In this document: in pieces, positions 20,935 through 29,719 of the stretch
How positions within the stretch are numbered: the stretch's first letter is position 1
How the letters are laid out: the number at the start of each line of letters is the position of its first letter
From: Zobellia uliginosa
Lineage (GTDB): Bacteria; Bacteroidota; Bacteroidia; Flavobacteriales; Flavobacteriaceae
Assembly (NCBI RefSeq): GCF_900156625.1
Contig: NZ_FTOB01000004.1
Location: 372,001-436,000 of the forward strand
DNA length: 64,000 nucleotides
Direction of reading: 5' to 3'
The notes under the pieces: generated by a model
The model's input: only the letters and a program-made list of their open reading frames with translations
Database searches by the model: none
What the model was told of the DNA's origin: nothing
Made by a program: the position numbers and the translations under genes

Positions 20935-21975
20935 ATGAATGGCACCAAAAGAAAATATTTACCACAATGGTTGGTACATGCCTTCTTATGGTGTGCGTTA
21001 TACGGGGTGATAATATATCCGTTTTTATTTGAGCCGCGGTCGGTACCTCCCCATATCATCGTAAAGTTGGTGATGGCTACGGTTTTGTTCTATTTCAATT
21101 ACTTCTATTTGGTTCCCCGTCTTCTATTAAAGGGAAAAAAGAAGGTTTATATCGTTCTGTCGATCGTATTGTTATTGGTCATCGCTTATCTTTTCTACAA
21201 TATATTTTCGCCCCAACTGCCTAGGGAGTTCGGTCCGATTGCTGATCGTATAAAAGAACATAGGGGAGGCAAAGTGCCTTTTTTTCGATTTTTGTTAATG
21301 CCTTTTGTGACTTTTGGAATCCCCTACATTTTTGCGATAGTGCTCCGTGTTTTTAATGAATTGCAGCGAAATGAAAACCTTCGTAAAACTGTGGAAAAGG
21401 AAAAGGTACAATCTGAACTGCAGTTTCTGAAAACGCAGTTGAATCCACATTTTCTCTTTAACTCCCTCAATACCATATACTCGCTATCGGTTAAAAAATC
21501 GACTGACACTTCAGAGGCGATCATAAACCTATCGGAATTGATGCGCTATATGATTTATGAGGCGGACAAGGACTTGGTTCCCTTGAATAAGGAAATAGAG
21601 TACATCAAAAATTATGTGGCCTTACAAAGATTGCGCTTGGCCGATAGTGAAAACGTCTTCCTGAAAATTTCAGGGGACGACACCGGAAAGATAATACCCT
21701 CCCTATTGTTTATCTCATTTATTGAAAACGCCTTTAAATACGGCACCGATTACGATGGAAAGACCAACGTGAAGATAAACCTTTTGATCAAAGAGAAGTC
21801 TATACATCTATACGTTGTGAACAAAATTGGAAAGCACAGGGCAAAATCTGAGAGTAGCGGTGTGGGCCTCCAGAACGTAAAGAATAGATTAAACTTTCTA
21901 TATCCGAATTCCCACGAACTGGATATAAAGGATGACGGGGCCACTTATGAAGTTAATTTAATTTTAAACTTATAA
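20935..21975 (+). CDS. LytS/YehU-type sensor histidine kinase
   Basis: A 346-residue membrane kinase. Four membrane spans are seen in residues 12-140, then a short coiled-coil (EKEKVQSELQFLKTQLN) and the His_kinase domain with phosphorylated His172 in LNPHFLFNSLNTIY. The ATP-binding part has FIENAFKYG and SGVGLQNVKNRLNFLYP. No large sensing domain is present; the loop before the last span is Arg/Lys-rich. It partners the LytTR regulator that starts 2 bases after its stop. Confidence 0.93.
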   Translation: MNGTKRKYLPQWLVHAFLWCALYGVIIYPFLFEPRSVPPHIIVKLVMATVLFYFNYFYLVPRLLLKGKKKVYIVLSIVLLLVIAYLFYNIFSPQLPREFGPIADRIKEHRGGKVPFFRFLLMPFVTFGIPYIFAIVLRVFNELQRNENLRKTVEKEKVQSELQFLKTQLNPHFLFNSLNTIYSLSVKKSTDTSEAIINLSELMRYMIYEADKDLVPLNKEIEYIKNYVALQRLRLADSENVFLKISGDDTGKIIPSLLFISFIENAFKYGTDYDGKTNVKINLLIKEKSIHLYVVNKIGKHRAKSESSGVGLQNVKNRLNFLYPNSHELDIKDDGATYEVNLILNL

Positions 21976-21977
21976 AT

Positions 21978-22712
21978 ATGAACTGTATACTCATTGACGA
22001 TGAACCGTTGGCCATTGAAATTTTGGCGGACTATTGCAAGAAAATTGGATTTGTTGAGGTCATAGGTACGTTCACGAACCCTTTAGAGGCGATTGCGACC
22101 ATTAACAAGAAAAAAGTAGATCTTATTTTTTGTGATATTGAAATGCCTCAAATCAACGGTTTGGATTTTATTAGCGCCCTCGATAATCCGCCACTTTTTA
22201 TCTTTACAACGGCCTATTCACAATATGCGGTTGAGGGCTTTGAACTGAACGCTGTAGATTATTTGGTAAAACCCATTCCATATCAACGCTTCATTAAGGC
22301 CGTTTTAAGGGCTAAGGAGCTAATGGCCCGAAAGGATGTCCCTTTGGGCGCCACGGTTGCCAATGTCTTTCCTTCGTACGGAGATACCAATGAAAACCAG
22401 AAGTTCATTTTTGTAAAATCGGAACACGAAAGTGTAAAGATCGATTTAGACGACATTCAATACGTGCAGGGTCTAAAAGACTATTTGAAAATTCATGTGG
22501 TGGGCTGTAATAAGACAATTTTGACCTTGCTAAGTTTTAAGGACATTCTAGAAAAATTACCCCAGAACCAGTTTATCAGGGTACACAAATCATTTGTGGT
22601 CAACGTGAATTTTATCAAGACCATACAACGGAACAGAATTGTAATCGATGATATTCGCATACCGATTGGGGAGAGCCATAAAACACAGTTTTTCTCTATG
22701 TTGGGGCTATAG
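21978..22712 (+). CDS. LytTR-family response regulator
   Basis: A 244-residue regulator. The receiver domain (1-125) has the acidic pair in LIDDEPLAIE, phosphoacceptor Asp53 in IFCDIEMPQING and the Lys in YLVKPIPYQRF. The LytTR DNA-binding domain (about 140-243) has VKSEHESVKIDLDDIQYVQG, FIRVHKSFVVN and IPIGESHK. LytTR proteins bind pairs of direct repeats about 21 bp apart. It is translationally coupled to the kinase and ends the + strand unit, facing the DUF6090 gene. Confidence 0.94.
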   Translation: MNCILIDDEPLAIEILADYCKKIGFVEVIGTFTNPLEAIATINKKKVDLIFCDIEMPQINGLDFISALDNPPLFIFTTAYSQYAVEGFELNAVDYLVKPIPYQRFIKAVLRAKELMARKDVPLGATVANVFPSYGDTNENQKFIFVKSEHESVKIDLDDIQYVQGLKDYLKIHVVGCNKTILTLLSFKDILEKLPQNQFIRVHKSFVVNVNFIKTIQRNRIVIDDIRIPIGESHKTQFFSMLGL

Positions 22713-22825: not shown

Positions 22826-23608
22826 CTAGTCTTTGAGGGAGACTTCTTTATATGAAAGCGTATAGCCCAACTCTTGTTTTAACTTCAAGGACATAACTTG
22901 GGTTCTGTTTCTCAATTTTTTGGCGCTGGTCAGTAGGTTTTGCGTCTGTATGAGCCGGTCGACCAGACTATTCTGATATTCCTTACTGTTTAATAAATTC
23001 TGATAGTTTGACGATTTTCCGAAAGTCCTTATTCGGCTGTATCTGGGGTTGTCTTTTGAAAGCATGTCTTTTAAGGCCAAGTGTTTTTCCAGTACCGGCT
23101 GTAATCTGTCAAGTACGATTTCCTTTATTTTTGAATCGATAGATTCCAATTTTTGTATTTCAGCAGGGTAATTGGTAATCAGCCCTTTGAGCGAGTCACT
23201 TTCTATAAGTTCTAATTTGGTCGTGTTGATGACGGAATTCAAGGCCCCTTCGAGCAAGTTGGTTTCGGAATAGTTGATGTGGATAATCGTGTCTTTTGCC
23301 CCTTCGGTAATTTCGCTAGAGGGCAGCCCAATATAGTTCATGGTGGCTTCCAGTCTTTTGGAAGTGTCCGAATAATGGTCTATAGTGGTGCTTAGGATCT
23401 TTAGATTGGTGTTGAGCTCATCGTACAGGCCTTCGTATATTTTTAGTTCTACGATCCTGTTTTTTCGGATTTCGTTTAGATCATTGATTTTCCAAGCGAT
23501 CAATATACCTATTACAATAAGGAAAATCTCTCCTAGGGCATAGGTTATATAACCTTTGAGTTTGCCTGAATCTAAAAGCTTCTTTCTTATTTTCCTAAAA
23601 ACGGTCAT
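22826..23608 (-). CDS. DUF6090 family membrane protein
   Basis: A 260-residue protein with the family N-terminus: a basic stretch (FRKIRKKLLDSGKL), a single membrane span at about residues 22-40 (ALGEIFLIVIGILIAWKIN), then a helical, coiled-coil-rich periplasmic domain. The family is common in Flavobacteriaceae and its role is unknown. Its ATG overlaps the SCO1 stop by 4 bases (ATGA), so it is translationally coupled and is the last gene of the operon. Confidence 0.75.
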   Translation of the reverse strand: MTVFRKIRKKLLDSGKLKGYITYALGEIFLIVIGILIAWKINDLNEIRKNRIVELKIYEGLYDELNTNLKILSTTIDHYSDTSKRLEATMNYIGLPSSEITEGAKDTIIHINYSETNLLEGALNSVINTTKLELIESDSLKGLITNYPAEIQKLESIDSKIKEIVLDRLQPVLEKHLALKDMLSKDNPRYSRIRTFGKSSNYQNLLNSKEYQNSLVDRLIQTQNLLTSAKKLRNRTQVMSLKLKQELGYTLSYKEVSLKD

Positions 23609-24285
23609 TCCTTCTTTAAGCTTTTTACATCCGTGATCAATTGTGCGATCGAGGCTCGGTTCAATCCGTTGTAGATACCTCTTATGTGTCTGTTCTTGTC
23701 TATGAGCAGAAAGTTTTCTGTATGCAGGAAGTCGTTAATGTCTTTAGGGATGCCCAAATCGTTCTCAACAAAATAGTGGTGCCTTCCCAGGTCATAGATC
23801 TCTTGTTTGTCTCCCGTGACCAAGTGCCATTTTTCATTGATGACACCGTTCTTTTTGGCGTAGGTGTTCAGTACGGAAACAGAATCTATGGAAGGGGTAA
23901 CGGAATGTGATAAAAGCGCTACTTCAGGGTCGTCTATAAAAGCCTTTTGAACCTTTTGCATATTCCCGGTCATTTTCAGGCAAATGCCGGGGCAGGTGGT
24001 AAAGAAAAAATCGGTAATGTAAATTTTGTCTTTAAAGGTTTCGGGGGTTATGGTGTCTCCCAGTTGGTCTACTAGGCGGTAATCGGGAATTTTGTGGAAT
24101 TCCTTTTCTTCCTGTGAGCCCGGTTTCAACCAATGGGGCGTAAAAGATGCATCCGCGTAATAGGGAAGATGTTCGACCCTGCTCGATTTCTCCTTGTTTT
24201 CCTTTTCTACCGTTTGATGGCAGGCGGTCAAGGCCAAAAGCAACAGTAAAAAGCTATCTCTCCTTATCTCTAACAACAACTTCAT
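23605..24285 (-). CDS. SCO1/SenC-type thioredoxin-fold lipoprotein
   Basis: A 226-residue lipoprotein (lipobox LTAC, Cys22). The thioredoxin fold carries the SCO copper motif: Cys98 and Cys102 in TTCPGICLKM and His188 in FLHTENFLLID. SCO proteins deliver copper to the CuA site of cytochrome oxidase or act as envelope thiol-disulfide proteins. The start overlaps the MORN gene by 32 bases; no later Met is available before the thioredoxin core, so the overlap is taken as real. No oxidase genes are nearby. Confidence 0.88.
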   Translation of the reverse strand: MKLLLEIRRDSFLLLLLALTACHQTVEKENKEKSSRVEHLPYYADASFTPHWLKPGSQEEKEFHKIPDYRLVDQLGDTITPETFKDKIYITDFFFTTCPGICLKMTGNMQKVQKAFIDDPEVALLSHSVTPSIDSVSVLNTYAKKNGVINEKWHLVTGDKQEIYDLGRHHYFVENDLGIPKDINDFLHTENFLLIDKNRHIRGIYNGLNRASIAQLITDVKSLKKE

Positions 24286-24871
24286 CTTCTAGTTTATAAC
24301 ATGAATTAGCTCTCCTCATTCCGAAAATACGGCCATTCTTGGCTTCGTAGTTAATGTATAGTTTGCCGTTTTGGAGCCATGCCTTTTGTAGGCCTTCCTC
24401 TTTTCCTTCTACCAGGTTTCTCTCTTTTAAAATTTTACCGTTAGCGTACCATTTGGTTTGCTTGCCGTGAAGTCGACCATTGACGTAATACGATTTTTCC
24501 GATAAGGTTCCGTTTTCCCACCACGTCTTATAAACGCCATCTAACCGATTGTGCCTATAATTGGCCTGAACACGCAAGATGTTGTGGTCTGACCATTGTT
24601 TTGCGATACCTTCCCTTTTTCCGTCTACAAAACCTAAGCGTTCCCCCAAGGCACCGTTCGGGTGGAATTTTACTGAATAGCCGTTGTACGATCGGTCGTT
24701 ATAGTACCATTTGCCTTCGATGGGGTTAAGTACCAAATCTTTTTTTAGCACTTCCTGCATATTGATGACAAGGGGGGCTTCTTCAACTTTCGGTTCTGTT
24801 GTAGCGCTCTCTTTGCAACTGGCAAAAGAGAGTGCCGACAATAGGGTTATGTAAAAAAAACGTTTTATCAT
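24254..24871 (-). CDS. MORN-repeat (YwqK-like) lipoprotein
   Basis: A 205-residue lipoprotein with lipobox SFASC and about five or six MORN-variant repeats from residue 55 onward, each of the type GxxxxWxxNGxL (for example WWENGTLSEKSYYVNG and WYANGKILKERNLVEG). Such YwqK-like repeats form beta-hairpin sheets and are common in surface lipoproteins of this phylum; function unknown. It starts 5 bases after the preceding YHYH gene and runs 32 bases into the SCO1 gene, so it is part of one operon. Confidence 0.8.
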   Translation of the reverse strand: MIKRFFYITLLSALSFASCKESATTEPKVEEAPLVINMQEVLKKDLVLNPIEGKWYYNDRSYNGYSVKFHPNGALGERLGFVDGKREGIAKQWSDHNILRVQANYRHNRLDGVYKTWWENGTLSEKSYYVNGRLHGKQTKWYANGKILKERNLVEGKEEGLQKAWLQNGKLYINYEAKNGRIFGMRRANSCYKLEDEVVVRDKER

Positions 24872-24876
24872 AGGGC

Positions 24877-25647
24877 TTAATATCCTTGGTACGGTCCTGC
24901 AAAGGCCAGATAAGAACCTGTTGTGGAATATACCTCGTTAATAATATGATAGTGGTATTCTTCTTTACCGTCTGTGTATTGGGTGGCCGATACATGTCCG
25001 CCTGACTCGTCAAGGTCGGTTGGGTAAGTGCCAGTAGCCTTACATTTCCTTCCGTAGAGGAAAACACCGTCCAACAATATGCCTACTAGCTTGTCATCGT
25101 CGTTACTGAAGGCCTTTGGCTCTAGGTGATAATGGTATACGCCGGGGCCGATATGAGCTCCTGTCCAATCGAGACTTGCCGCCGCTTTGTCAAGTGCACC
25201 GCCTCCTTCTTGGTCATTGAATATGGATGCGCCACTTACGGCAATGCCAATAGTGTTCAGCTGCGTTTCCACCGTATTGCCCGTAAGGTCGGGTGTTGCA
25301 TCCACTCTTATGGTCGTGGCGTTGTTATTACTGCTCATTATACTAGGAGTCAATGCCACGTCGGGCTCATCTTTATACAGGCTGTTGCCTTCTCCCCAGT
25401 ATACGGTTTCGTGATTGGGTAAGCCTGTGGTTTCGATAACAACTTCAGATCCATCTAAGTAAATGGTGGTGGCTTCGTTGTTGAAGGCGGCGTAGGCGGC
25501 ATGCAATTCCGTTACGGTTTCCTCTTCAGAAGTTTCGTCCATGTCAGAATCATCAACGCTATCAGAACTGCAGGCAACAAAGCCGATGCATAGCATTGCG
25601 CAACCAAAACCCAATGGGATAACCTTTCTTAGAAACTTTTTTTTCAT
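24877..25647 (-). CDS. YHYH-domain lipoprotein (shorter paralogue)
   Basis: A 256-residue lipoprotein (lipobox FVAC, Cys26) followed by an acidic Ser/Asp/Glu linker (27-47) and a YHYH domain. The motif YHYH occurs twice, at 171-174 (GVYHYHLEP) and 231-234 (EEYHYHIINE), with conserved GILLDGVFLYGR between them. The paired His residues suggest a metal site, which is inference. The start at 25647 gives a proper signal peptide; an upstream in-frame start at 25713 does not. It is a paralogue of the gene at 26450. Confidence 0.85.
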   Translation of the reverse strand: MKKKFLRKVIPLGFGCAMLCIGFVACSSDSVDDSDMDETSEEETVTELHAAYAAFNNEATTIYLDGSEVVIETTGLPNHETVYWGEGNSLYKDEPDVALTPSIMSSNNNATTIRVDATPDLTGNTVETQLNTIGIAVSGASIFNDQEGGGALDKAAASLDWTGAHIGPGVYHYHLEPKAFSNDDDKLVGILLDGVFLYGRKCKATGTYPTDLDESGGHVSATQYTDGKEEYHYHIINEVYSTTGSYLAFAGPYQGY

Positions 25648-25691
25648 GTTTTTGTATTTTAAATAATTGATTGTTAATTCTTTGTGGTGGT

Positions 25692-25699
25692 CAAATTTA
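25692..25699 (-). promoter_or_regulatory. Predicted internal -7 box (TAAATTTG) before the second YHYH gene
   Basis: On the minus strand TAAATTTG is an exact TAnnTTTG match 44 bases before the start at 25647, in the 141-base gap after the single-span protein gene. It could give a second transcript for YHYH-MORN-SCO1-DUF6090. Confidence 0.4.
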
Positions 25700-25788
25700 G
25701 CTTTAATGCCCATGCCGAATGGGGCCGATCGGTAGGTGGCCTTTTGTTTTCAGTGGTTGCCCCAATCTATCCGGTAAACGATCTTTGC

Positions 25789-26418
25789 CTAAGCCGGACT
25801 TAGCTCGCTTTTCTCCGGTTTGAATATTTTTACAATCATGATCGATGAGACCACTACCAAAATATTTAGGGAAATAAAGGGCCAAAAGAGATTCGATTCT
25901 TCTCCCTTTGTTTGAAAGTGACCGTTGATTTTTTCGACCTGTACCGTAAACTGATTGTCTTTTTTAATGACAAAGTTTTCGGAGCTATCCGCTTGATCGA
26001 TTATTTTAAAAACCGTATTGTGTTTTGAATTTTGCTTAAAACCTTTGAGTTTGACCTGTAAGGTGGTTAGCGCACTGGGCAAACCGACCACCCTGAATTT
26101 AAGGTCTGTTTGGTGGCCCATTTTTATGGCCCCTTCCTTAAGCTCGCCCGTAAAATCAGAATTCGCCTTTAAAAGAATATTGTCCTTTACGTAGGTGATT
26201 ACCAATTTTTGAAACTCATCGGCCGATAATGCGTCCATTTGAAGGTCAGGGTAATTTTGGATCAACTGAGACCGGAAACCATTAAAAGAAGAACTAATAT
26301 GTAGCGTCCAGTTATTTTCTTGATCTTGTGCCAAGGTCATCGTTGCTATTTGGGAGCTGTGGGCGCTGGCAAATAACGAACAGAGGCATGTTAAAAGGCC
26401 GAATATTATTTTTTTCAT
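25789..26418 (-). CDS. Secreted single-span membrane protein with predicted N-terminal His
   Basis: A 209-residue protein of unrecognised family. Residues 1-19 are a signal peptide with an ASA cleavage site, after which the mature chain should begin with His20 (HSSQIATMTL). The periplasmic part is beta-rich with 3-4 conserved-looking strands, and a C-terminal membrane span (about 178-197, WPFISLNILVVVSSIMIV) is followed by a short basic tail. Proteins with an exposed N-terminal His often bind copper; that link is inferred from the neighbouring SCO1 gene. It lies 31 bases after the first YHYH gene. Confidence 0.7.
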   Translation of the reverse strand: MKKIIFGLLTCLCSLFASAHSSQIATMTLAQDQENNWTLHISSSFNGFRSQLIQNYPDLQMDALSADEFQKLVITYVKDNILLKANSDFTGELKEGAIKMGHQTDLKFRVVGLPSALTTLQVKLKGFKQNSKHNTVFKIIDQADSSENFVIKKDNQFTVQVEKINGHFQTKGEESNLFWPFISLNILVVVSSIMIVKIFKPEKSELSPA

Positions 26419-26449: not shown

Positions 26450-27505
26450 CTAATTTATTTCAAAGGAGCCTTGAGCACCTGCAAAACAGCCGATAAAGCT
26501 ATTGGTCCCGGCGGCGGCTACATGGTAGTGGTATCCACGTGTGTCGTCAGTGTGACCGCGACAATCGTCTAAATCCGTTGGTTCGTTGCCGTTATCGTCC
26601 AAACGTTCGAACATGGGGAAGCCGTCCATGGCATATCCGATCATAGCCGAGTGTCCGTCGTCTTGGGCTATTTTAGTGGTCATGCCAGTGGCGGCATGAT
26701 AATGATAGCCGGTGTTTGGGTTTACGTGTCCTCCGTTGTCATCCATCGGGGCCAGTGTGTAGGCGTCGAGAATGGCAGAGGTTGGTGCCGGTGGGTCAAA
26801 GTTTACGCCGTTAAACGCCAAGCCGATAACCGACCCATCGCCACCTCCCATGGGGGCGTCGCCCGGTGGAGGTCCGTCAGCTGGAGGGCCATCTGTAGGG
26901 GGGACACCTCCGCCACCTCCTGGAATCCCATCCGAAATATAATCGGGGGAATCTAGTTTTACAGGAGTAACGGGGATGTAGTAAGTCAACGTAATATCGG
27001 TAACATAAGAAGGCAGACATTCCACACAGAAATTCTCATATTCTTCACCCACATTCGGATTGGCGGCGTTCTGGCAGTCTTCCAATGAATTGGTGACATA
27101 GATGTTTCCGTTTTCATCGTACATTTTCCAGGTGGCGTCGGAATAGAAATCGGCCATGTTTTCAATAAAGGCCCCATCTACATCGTAGAGTTCACCATTT
27201 TCAAACCACTTCCCCCCTTTGTCCGCTCCATCGGAAATATGGGTAGGGCACCAAGGGCCCATTTGGTGTTCGGTGGGGGTAGAGGTCGTAGTAATTTTAT
27301 AGCAGGTGGCCACGGTTCCATCGGAAAGTGTTTTTTCTACGGTAGTAATGGGTTCTGCCAGGCCATCCGCCAAAAATAGGGTCGGGTCTACCGTACGGGT
27401 GCCTTCATCGTTGGTCGCAAGACCCGAGCTCTCGTCGGAACTGCAGCTGTTGCCCGAAAAAAGTAGAAATATACCGGAAAGTGCCATTGCTATAATTTGT
27501 TTCAT
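26450..27505 (-). CDS. YHYH-domain lipoprotein (longer paralogue)
   Basis: A 351-residue lipoprotein with a signal peptide and lipidation Cys21 (GNSC, a loose lipobox). Residues 60-190 hold paired Cys residues, 193-222 are a Gly/Pro/Asp-rich linker, and the YHYH domain follows with two motifs at 267-270 (TGYHYHAATG) and 325-328 (RGYHYHVAA), plus an intervening GYAMDGFPMFE. The DLDDCRGHTDD segment before the second motif adds possible ligands. It lies 32 bases after the EF-hand gene. Confidence 0.87.
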   Translation of the reverse strand: MKQIIAMALSGIFLLFSGNSCSSDESSGLATNDEGTRTVDPTLFLADGLAEPITTVEKTLSDGTVATCYKITTTSTPTEHQMGPWCPTHISDGADKGGKWFENGELYDVDGAFIENMADFYSDATWKMYDENGNIYVTNSLEDCQNAANPNVGEEYENFCVECLPSYVTDITLTYYIPVTPVKLDSPDYISDGIPGGGGGVPPTDGPPADGPPPGDAPMGGGDGSVIGLAFNGVNFDPPAPTSAILDAYTLAPMDDNGGHVNPNTGYHYHAATGMTTKIAQDDGHSAMIGYAMDGFPMFERLDDNGNEPTDLDDCRGHTDDTRGYHYHVAAAGTNSFIGCFAGAQGSFEIN

Positions 27506-27537: not shown

Positions 27538-27816
27538 TTATTGCTTTTTTCTTCTTTGGGGCTTAGGGGCCTTCTTTAGTTCATCAAGTGAAAGGTAGCC
27601 GTCTTCGTTCGTGTCTATTTTTGAAAAGTCGTTCTTTAAGGGGCCTTTTATTTCTTCTTTGGAAAGTCTTCCATCTTCATCCTTGTCCATCTGTTTTAAT
27701 AATTCAGTGGCCGATGGCGGTTCTTGTCCTTTTTTTTCTTGAGCGAATGCCGCTGTGGCGGTCATCAACATAAATATGGAAAGCGCCAGTGTGTTGTGTA
27801 TTACATTTTTTTTCAT
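27538..27816 (-). CDS. Secreted EF-hand protein
   Basis: A 92-residue protein with a signal peptide (cleavage near AFA, residue 25) and two EF-hand loops, DKDEDGRLSKEE (44-55) and DTNEDGYLSLDE (68-79), both with complete Ca2+-coordinating positions. The C-terminus is Lys/Arg/Pro-rich. It is the first gene of the operon and is divergent from the LytS/LytTR pair. A calcium-binding or structural role outside the cytoplasm is likely. Confidence 0.88.
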   Translation of the reverse strand: MKKNVIHNTLALSIFMLMTATAAFAQEKKGQEPPSATELLKQMDKDEDGRLSKEEIKGPLKNDFSKIDTNEDGYLSLDELKKAPKPQRRKKQ

Positions 27817-27850
27817 GATATTCTTTTTTAATTAAGCCTATTGGGCAGTA

Positions 27851-27858
27851 CAAAGATG
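27851..27858 (-). promoter_or_regulatory. Candidate -7 box of the EF-hand/YHYH operon
   Basis: On the minus strand CATCTTTG is one mismatch from TAnnTTTG, 34 bases before the start at 27816. If real, transcription would begin near 27844 and the nearest direct repeat of the array at 27887 would be centred near -47. Confidence 0.3.
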
Positions 27859-27886: not shown

Positions 27887-27937
27887 TTCAGTAAAGGGAG
27901 AGGGGTTTTCAGTGAATGGTCGATAAGCTTCAGTGAA
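27887..27937. promoter_or_regulatory. Three 21-bp-phased direct repeats, candidate LytTR operator
   Basis: TTCAGTAAA (27887-27895), TTCAGTGAA (27908-27916) and TTCAGTGAA (27929-27937) have starts exactly 21 bp apart, with 12-base spacers of unrelated sequence. LytTR regulators bind 9-bp direct repeats with 12-13-base spacers, and each element fits the general pattern W-M-M-G-T-T-N-R-K with a mismatch at the sixth position. The array lies in the 192-base gap between the divergent EF-hand operon and the LytS/LytTR operon. Confidence 0.7.
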
Positions 27938-28008
27938 CGATTCGGTTCGCCCGGTTTTCAACCCTTGTTTTGTGGAATGGATGAAAATTAAATGCCTTAA
28001 TTTGTAGC

Positions 28009-29040
28009 ATGAAACAAGCACATCGTTTTCTTTTTCACGCTATTTTATGGCTTGCCGTTTGGTTGATAGCTTGGTTGCTGATAGGTGATGACTCTACGTT
28101 TTTAGAGAAAAATGCACCTTCTTTTATCATGCAGGTATTGTTAATAGGCACTCTGATCTATTATACCGCGCCCCGTCTATTGTTCAGGAAAAAGTATATT
28201 GCCTTTGGAGTGGTCTCCATAGTGGCCATCATAGTATGTTCCTTTGCCGTTACCGAGATAGTCCGGCTCATCGATGGGGTGCCGGGACCCCCTATGGGAG
28301 GGCCTCCTCCTGGTAGGCCCCATATGGCACCGCCCCAAGTTCTGATTCAATTTCTGGTCCTTTCGGTGGCCTATGTGTTGGCTACCTTTGTAGAAACCTT
28401 TTTGTTGGCCCAAAAGAAAGAGGAAGAGACCATTCGGAATAAGAATGCCGGCCTACAGATGGAGCTGAAGTTCTTGAAATCTCAGATAAATCCTCATTTT
28501 TTGTTCAATGCCTTGAACAATATTTACGCCCTTTCGGTTATAGATTCAAATCGCACCCAAGAGAGTATCGGTACCTTGTCGGAAATGCTTAGGTATGTCT
28601 TGTACGAATGCGATAGGCCATTAGTGCCTATTGGTAAGGAGATATCGTATATTGAGAATTATTTGGCGCTTTTTGCCCTGAAGAGCAGTAAGCCCTTTCC
28701 GATTACGACGCATTTTGACATCCAAAACTCGACGGTTTCCATTGCACCTATGCTCTTGATCCCTTTTGTAGAGAATGCTTTGAAGCATGGCAATATAGAA
28801 AGGATAGAGGGGTCGTTTTTAGAGGTCCGGGTTTCGTGCGATAGGCATAAAATAGATTTTTTTATAGCGAACAGTATCCCAAAAAACGCCATAACAAAAG
28901 ATATCGTGGGAGGAATAGGTCTTGAAAATGTGAAGAAGAGGCTTGAAATACTTTATCCTGAAAAACATCGATTGCAAATAGAGCCAAAAGCGGAAACATA
29001 CACGGTTAACCTAACTATTGATTTGGATGAAAACGATTAA
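28009..29040 (+). CDS. LytS/YehU-type sensor histidine kinase (second copy)
   Basis: A 343-residue membrane kinase with four spans (about 7-26, 38-58, 62-87, 111-133). The loop between spans 3 and 4 (residues 89-109) is rich in Pro, Gly, Met and His and should face the periplasm. The catalytic part has His163 in INPHFLFNALNNIY, FVENALKHG and GGIGLENVKKRLEILYP. It is paralogous to the kinase at 20935. Its stop overlaps the regulator start by 14 bases. It faces the EF-hand/YHYH operon and is its likely controller. Confidence 0.93.
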   Translation: MKQAHRFLFHAILWLAVWLIAWLLIGDDSTFLEKNAPSFIMQVLLIGTLIYYTAPRLLFRKKYIAFGVVSIVAIIVCSFAVTEIVRLIDGVPGPPMGGPPPGRPHMAPPQVLIQFLVLSVAYVLATFVETFLLAQKKEEETIRNKNAGLQMELKFLKSQINPHFLFNALNNIYALSVIDSNRTQESIGTLSEMLRYVLYECDRPLVPIGKEISYIENYLALFALKSSKPFPITTHFDIQNSTVSIAPMLLIPFVENALKHGNIERIEGSFLEVRVSCDRHKIDFFIANSIPKNAITKDIVGGIGLENVKKRLEILYPEKHRLQIEPKAETYTVNLTIDLDEND

Positions 29041-29719
29041 ATGTCTTGTTATCGATGACGAAGAGCTGGCCAGGGGATTGCTCAAAACATATATCGAGAG
29101 ATTGGGTTTTTTGCAGTTTGTAGATGATATGGCCAATCCATTGGATACATTGGGCCTTATGAAAGATGAGAAAATCGATTTGCTTTTCTTGGATATCCAG
29201 ATGCCCGAGATCAAGGGGACCGATTTTGTAAAACTGATTCCCGATGGGGTTCAGGTTATATTTACCACGGCCTATTCGGAATATGCGCTTCAGGGCTATG
29301 AACTCAACGTTGTCGATTACCTGTTGAAACCCATCACTTTTGAACGTTTTTTGCTTGCGGTCAATAAGGTGAAGGCGAAAGTCGAAGGTTCGGGGAACAC
29401 CAGTGAAGTAATTTCGGATAGCCTTACGGTAAAATCGGGCTACGATTTGCACAAGGTAAAATATGACGACCTTCTATATATAGAAAGTGATGGCGAGTAT
29501 GTTAATTTTTATCTAGAGGGCAAAAAACTTATGAGCCTACAGTCGTTAAAAAAACTGACGGAACTTTTGCCCAGTGACCGCTTTATGCGAGTGCATCGCT
29601 CGTATATCGTAAATAAAACCAAGGTAACGACCTTAAAGGGACGAGATATTTTTATAGGAAAAACCGAAATACCCGTCAGTGCCCAATATTTTGAGGCCGT
29701 AAAAAAAGAACTTTTTTGA
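29027..29719 (+). CDS. LytTR-family response regulator (second copy)
   Basis: A 230-residue regulator. The receiver domain has VIDDEELARG, phosphoacceptor Asp56 in FLDIQMPEIKG and YLLKPITFERF. The LytTR domain has KVKYDDLLYIESDGEYVN, FMRVHRSYIVN and KTEIPVSAQY. The ATG at 29027 is chosen over an in-frame ATT at 29018; it overlaps the kinase stop by 14 bases. A strong terminator follows. It probably binds the 21-bp-phased repeats at 27887-27937. Confidence 0.93.
   Translation: MKTIKCLVIDDEELARGLLKTYIERLGFLQFVDDMANPLDTLGLMKDEKIDLLFLDIQMPEIKGTDFVKLIPDGVQVIFTTAYSEYALQGYELNVVDYLLKPITFERFLLAVNKVKAKVEGSGNTSEVISDSLTVKSGYDLHKVKYDDLLYIESDGEYVNFYLEGKKLMSLQSLKKLTELLPSDRFMRVHRSYIVNKTKVTTLKGRDIFIGKTEIPVSAQYFEAVKKELF

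Follow-up and report, generated by a model that had tools for sequence, protein, structure and literature searches.

Two divergent gene sets in the 64,000-nucleotide stretch of Zobellia uliginosa DNA analyzed here (the window) are separated by a gap that holds three phased 9-base repeats, which raises the questions of what binds these repeats and which of the two operons they serve. A direct, rechecked read of the sequence bore out the three repeats, the exact 21-bp period, and the 12-base spacers that had been described for them: on the plus strand, TTCAGTAAA occupies positions 27887 to 27895, and TTCAGTGAA occupies 27908 to 27916 and 27929 to 27937, with spacers of 12 nt and a period of exactly 21 bp. 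The features of the locus are as follows.

27887 to 27895, minus strand: R3, promoter-proximal element (TTTACTGAA), centered at ca. -45 from the predicted minus-strand start; kept at kinase-ortholog loci
27908 to 27916, minus strand: R2, central and best conserved element (TTCACTGAA), at ca. -66 from the predicted minus-strand start
27929 to 27937, minus strand: R1, distal element (TTCACTGAA), at ca. -87 relative to the predicted start of the minus-strand operon and at -76 relative to that of the kinase
27851 to 27858, minus strand: predicted -7 box of the EF-hand/YHYH operon (CATCTTTG); first transcribed base predicted near 27846
27997 to 28004, plus strand: predicted -7 box of the kinase/regulator operon (TTAATTTG), 4 nt before the ATG
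28009 to 29040, plus strand: sensor histidine kinase (PF06580)
29027 to 29719, plus strand: LytTR response regulator, Response_reg (PF00072) and LytTR (PF04397, E 3.1e-20); proposed array-binding protein
27538 to 27816, minus strand: EF-hand protein, first gene of the presumed target operon
26450 to 27505, minus strand: YHYH protein 1 (PF14240)
25789 to 26418, minus strand: 209-aa protein, no family match above cutoff
24877 to 25713, minus strand: YHYH protein 2 (PF14240)
24254 to 24871, minus strand: MORN-repeat protein (PF07661)
23605 to 24285, minus strand: SCO1/SenC protein (PF02630)
22826 to 23608, minus strand: 260-aa protein, no family match above cutoff; its homologs follow arrays in some relatives

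The minus-strand genes, from the EF-hand gene to that of the 260-aa protein, form an operon-like run, within which the 209-aa and 260-aa proteins matched nothing above the cutoffs in NCBIfam and Pfam. The regulator reading frame is listed from a TTG at 29018, and alignment with homologs suggests an ATG at 29027. Its best NCBIfam match was BtsR (NF008677, E 9.1e-36), an identity that we rejected on its score of 123.4, under the family cutoff of 246; in a search of solved structures, the best stretch fell within the receiver domain in all 29 rows.

Sequence and orientation of the repeats

Taken singly, the 9-mers occur at nearly chance frequency (46 matches with up to one mismatch against 38.4 expected, a count reached by 15 of 100 shuffles), as would repeats arising by chance or for structural reasons, with no regulatory role. 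Spaced pairs with up to three mismatches argue against this, since there were 6 of them against 0.27 expected and none of 100 shuffles reached 6. Four of the six are the window array itself, counted on both strands owing to the near-palindromic element; the other two carry three mismatches each, and the only exact pairs are the two overlapping ones of the window array. Genome-wide (5.3 Mb), the exact spaced pair recurs a single time, before a CotH gene on contig C12. Along with the pair counts, the shuffles, the conservation among orthologs, the recurrence before related genes, and the co-occurrence with the kinase make repeats without a regulatory role hardly credible. The array lies between both predicted start sites and should therefore not be transcribed from either, so RNA structure was set aside.

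Given that TTCACTGAA and its plus-strand form TTCAGTGAA are nearly palindromic, the strand of an element is decided by its center base. We collected 47 arrays, of which 25 are kinase adjacent and 22 are not; the latter are divided into 6 that belong to the gene cluster of the kinase and 16 at other places in their genomes. This set leaves out L193, L202, L203, L204, L247 (G370), L065 (G033), and L249 (G505), the kinase-side region of L069, a low-quality array inside L243, the matches G321:C6:129825 and G212:C66:353964, and model matches with an E value of >6.3e-4. Read toward the promoter, the center base was C, T, or A, and it was G in none of the 141 elements, and therefore the minus strand is the natural reading. 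On it, the elements are TTCACTGAA, TTCACTGAA, and TTTACTGAA (consensus, TTCACTKAA), which is the published LytTR orientation. The plus-strand TTCAGTRAA orientation of the original prediction was thus rejected, because the asymmetry of the element points to the minus-strand operon.

Conservation of the array and co-occurrence with the kinase

A first search covered 199 Flavobacteriaceae genomes, 13 of which (our own included) have an ortholog of the kinase clearly above the paralogs (E of 1.6e-92 or better; next match, 7.7e-53). A homolog of the LytTR gene is present at all 13 loci, and an EF-hand or YHYH gene divergently adjoins in 12, L062 being the exception. Over 28 orthologous-kinase loci, the best 21-bp-phased triple scored 17 to 26 out of 27. 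For the 12 nonself orthologs, the best-triple sum at period 21 was 245, compared with 195 for the next best among periods 12 to 33 and with 172.6±3.7 (maximum, 183) in 300 rounds of shuffling. At single loci, the weak triples of L053 and L057 were reached by 8 and 3 of 300 shuffles, respectively, and the other ten by none. Among 14 regions outside the array definition, the triple was reached by 0 of 500 shuffles in 12, by 2 in L068, and by 5 in L247. In a MAFFT alignment, 15 stretches of 93 bases aligned without gaps. The central element is nearly invariant. The phased repeats that the original prediction expected in the orthologous regions of related genomes are thus kept at kinase-ortholog loci, where period 21 is favored.

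A further scan for the kinase gave, among the 80 loci listed, three with at least 48% identity over most of its length; L067 was treated as a duplicate of G104:C4, while L068 and L069 were kept as new. A further ortholog, in G505 (L249), has a triple scoring 19 and GAAATTTG at 28 bp. In an order-level sample of 296 genomes (the share of other families not being given), kinase orthologs were found in 3, our own included, all of them in its own family.

To look beyond the kinase loci, we used a sequence-only model built from 15 arrays: 13 kinase-adjacent ones, that of our own CotH gene, and one before an unlinked YHYH gene of G063. In our own genome, the matches with an E value of <0.01 were the window (1.4e-12) and CotH (2.0e-12), both training arrays, followed by a match at 0.016. 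The model found further arrays in 12 related genomes and in the 397 family genomes. In the latter, there were 45 matches at an E value of ≤1e-5, 24 of them kinase adjacent. The other 21 include 2 training arrays and 6 from the gene cluster of the kinase itself; 16 of the 21 are situated before EF-hand (5), YHYH (4), or CotH (7) genes. The remaining five lie before the kinase gene of a LytTR system (G033), before ferric-reductase-like, arylsulfotransferase-like, and Cthe_2159-like genes, and before a gene for a 461-aa protein that starts like a lipoprotein. G212:C66:353964 and G321:C6:129825 were placed by coordinates alone. The model matches L203 and L204, with poor triples and no target gene, look like chance and were rejected. 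In G075 (L059) and G286 (L243), a CotH gene lies inside the run of EF-hand to YHYH2/MORN/SCO1 genes, which ties the unlinked CotH gene of our own genome to the system.

Other observations concern the surroundings of these genes. At L005 (1135 to 4441), the CotH gene that carries the array is followed by codirectional OEP, HlyD-like, and ABC genes, and similarly sized genes come after CotH in G236 and G388. Within the window, the second YHYH gene is immediately preceded by a weak model match (25712 to 25781; E 0.04), and G011 (E 0.028) and G026 (E 0.14) have weak ones in comparable positions; the window match is possibly a decayed internal promoter, or chance.

Array and kinase are found together. 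Among the 397 genomes, the array is present in 25 and the kinase ortholog in 25, with both in 24; G033 alone has the array without the ortholog, and G370 alone has the ortholog without an array above the model threshold. In G370 (L247), the kinase is accompanied by a weak triple (score of 18, reached by 5 of 500 shuffles) and a -7-like box at 28 bp. Since 13 of the 25 kinase-bearing genomes had served for training, we repeated the count in the 384 nontraining genomes: the array was present in 11 of 12 with the kinase ortholog versus 1 of 372 without it (Fisher P = 2.5e-19, merely a guide because the genomes are related).

This distribution also bears on which regulator would bind. The distal end of the operon (20935 to 22712) encodes a second kinase/LytTR pair, whose regulator, or another of the LytTR type, could be the one that occupies the array. 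However, among the regions retrieved for the kinase neighborhood, this pair is found at high identity (kinase, at least 56%) only in genomes of the same genus and in G129, while the presence of the array tracks the ortholog of the kinase at 28009. By eye, there is no array upstream of the second kinase, and another reading frame ends 12 bp before it. We consider binding by another LytTR regulator quite improbable.

Promoter geometry and direction of control

The predicted -7 box of the EF-hand/YHYH operon, CATCTTTG, matches the Bacteroidetes sigma-A box TAnnTTTG at 5 of 6 positions, and the gap between R3 and this box (27858 to 27851) is exactly 28 bp. On the coding strand, the window and CotH promoters have the same layout, that is, an element, 12 bp, an element, exactly 28 bp, and then CATCTTTG (window) or CACCTTTG (CotH). 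This shared layout indicates that the repeats are placed relative to the minus-strand operon and, at CotH, gives independent support for the -7 candidate at 27851 to 27858, which had been proposed originally and holds up: a box of that type follows the third element at exactly 28 bp in 39 of the 47 arrays. The exact box is missing in the other eight (L058, L061, L062, L063, L244, L197, L200, and L237). Averaged over the 47 arrays, the match to the -7 box was 4.68 of 6 at 28 bp, and no other distance from 10 to 45 bp exceeded 2.68. For arrays elsewhere in their genomes, the exact box was present in 13 of 16, a conformity that is partly selected, because these arrays were mostly found by a model containing both the elements and the box. 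At the 12 new kinase loci, found by protein and not by array, the A and TTT of the box lie exactly at 28 bp in 11, L244 being the single exception. L068 and L069 have no -7 box at 28 bp from the best triple, although in L068 CAAATTTG is at 28 bp in another register.

The -7 box of F. psychrophilum is placed at -12 to -5 (PMC9723704), which would put the start near 27846 and the elements at centers of ca. -45, -66, and -87. The original prediction had the nearest element at ca. -47, where an activator would sit; the activator-like place stands, with the center shifted to ca. -45 by this placement. Between R3 and the -7 box, there is a weak preference for T/A and no clear -33 element, as is reported for johnsoniae.

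The three elements differ in strength. The match to TTCACTGAA (inflated somewhat by the choice of the best triple and the model-based finding of many arrays) was 7.92 of 9 for R2 in the 25 kinase-adjacent arrays and 8.05 in the 22 others, ca. 7.3 for R3, and clearly weaker for R1, at 6.08 in the kinase-adjacent arrays, 5.45 in the 22 others (P = 0.18), and 5.25 in the 16 elsewhere in the genome. One 21-bp step upstream of R1, it was ca. 3.0, against an out-of-register background of 2.4. This pattern describes three sites for one promoter, the outermost being the least strict.

The kinase/regulator operon, on the other side, has a predicted TTTG box 4 nt before the ATG that is found in 24 of 27 orthologous loci (L062 differs, and L241 and L068 have none within the scanned range), and its mRNA is thus predicted to be leaderless, a class that makes up 5.5% of mRNAs in F. 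psychrophilum (PMC9723704). The array could be bidirectional, as originally suggested, with the distal element or elements also activating or repressing the kinase promoter at 27997 to 28004 (autoregulation), which would be compatible with an operator directed at the minus-strand operon. The distance from R1 to the kinase box is 67 nt in 11 of the 13 first orthologs, with 66 nt in the remaining two, and it is again 67 nt in 10 of the 12 new loci, a constancy that hints at coevolution with the array; in addition, the more distant LytTR system of G033 has such an array directly before its own kinase gene. Nevertheless, the EF-hand leader is also of fairly constant length among loci, so that constant spacing alone is weak evidence, the reversed center base is found in no element (0 G in 141), R1 is conserved almost as well in arrays not adjacent to the kinase (P = 0.18), and the element nearest to the kinase start would sit at -76. 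We therefore regard bidirectional control as possible but doubtful. Two suggestions of the original prediction are not supported. An operator shared equally by both operons does not fit elements that point toward the EF-hand/YHYH/CotH promoter, and neither do two overlapping pairs, one per direction, as all elements point one way and the third is also present, more weakly, at promoters away from the kinase.

Directly before its kinase gene, the system of G033 (L065, 9726 to 9821; 35%/42% identity) carries two elements that match, with a -7-like box 28 bp away; this system is a candidate autoregulated relative. A different pair, TTCACTAAA-N12-TTCACTAAA, adjoins another response regulator (its LytTR domain checked by Pfam in L018 only) in several of L007, L010 to L014, and L017 to L021, all from family genomes. 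In several loci, this pair precedes proteins that look secreted and have a '..GIGN..PQASLDI'-like beginning. At 28 to 29 bp after the pair, a -7-like box is often present, so the geometry may be general for the LytTR activators of the family.

Proposed mechanism and comparison with known systems

The LytTR regulator encoded at 29027 to 29719 very probably binds the three tandem sites as one directional operator and activates the minus-strand EF-hand/YHYH/MORN/SCO1 operon as well as CotH. The kinase would phosphorylate the regulator, two or three LytTR monomers would occupy adjacent sites on the same face of the helix at ca. -45, -66, and -87, and the bound monomers would help RNA polymerase at a promoter that has no clear -33 element. 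Activation would turn on the EF-hand/YHYH/MORN/SCO1 operon and, elsewhere in the genome, CotH, with possible feedback on the kinase/regulator operon. The same sites could instead serve a repressor, the bound regulator blocking the promoter, given that CoxC, a LytTR repressor, likewise uses three repeats (PMC11347149). But the CoxC operator overlaps the -35 box, while in the window array 28 bp separate the end of the closest element (ca. -41) from the downstream -7 box, a more activator-like position, and no clear -33 element is visible at the promoter. Repression seems unlikely to us, and an activator held just upstream of the polymerase is the simplest reading of this layout.

The predicted targets are a small set of poorly understood proteins, mostly secreted or membrane attached. 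The promoter code is readable (three TTCACTKAA elements at 21 bp, then 28 bp, and then a -7 box) and ties proteins of unknown role (YHYH, CotH, the 260-aa protein, and EF-hand proteins) to one signaling system, so that their functions become directly testable via a single regulator; the code further provides a spatial model for how LytTR regulators may activate Bacteroidetes promoters. More speculatively, and with rather little confidence, the array might mark a dedicated cell-surface program of Flavobacteriaceae, in which the kinase/LytTR system detects a signal from outside the cell, possibly calcium or copper to judge from its EF-hand and SCO1 partners, and, through three lined-up LytTR monomers, coproduces EF-hand, YHYH, and CotH-type secreted kinase proteins that may act together.

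In the literature searched, we found no publication combining CotH with LytTR, none on LytTR binding sites in Flavobacteriaceae, and none pairing YHYH with CotH or EF-hand proteins. The principle is a known one; the element sequence and the promoter context are new, and the regulon was not found in print, as far as searched. LytTR regulators bind pairs of 9-bp direct repeats 12 bp apart (PMC6193735 and PMC2766830), a rule that, together with a common core, CACTTA, agrees with the LytTR-type operator at the usual spacing proposed originally. The array shares this core with the ACCACTTAC-type repeats of PMC6193735 and, with the pair operators of AgrA, SilA, and HdrR/BrsR, direct repeats of ca. 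9 bp, spacers of ca. 12 bp, and a place upstream of the core promoter; its 12-bp spacers fall within the 10 to 13 bp of LytTR direct-repeat operators. It differs from them in having three elements, not two, with the sequence TTCACTKAA, and in lying 28 bp from a Bacteroidetes -7 box instead of ca. 10 bp from a -35 box.

RcoM1 and CoxC also have triple LytTR operators, with direct repeats about two helical turns apart; CoxC needs all three for efficient binding (PMC11347149). Their repeat, however, is TTCNNGCA/TTNNNGCN, while the TTCACTKAA of the window array has no GC at the conserved place. RcoM1 and CoxC are CO responsive, and CoxC, with its fused MHYT sensor domain, represses from over the -35 box. 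Unlike these sensor-fused proteins, the regulator of the window has a receiver domain (PF00072) and an adjacent kinase, and its array is positioned upstream.
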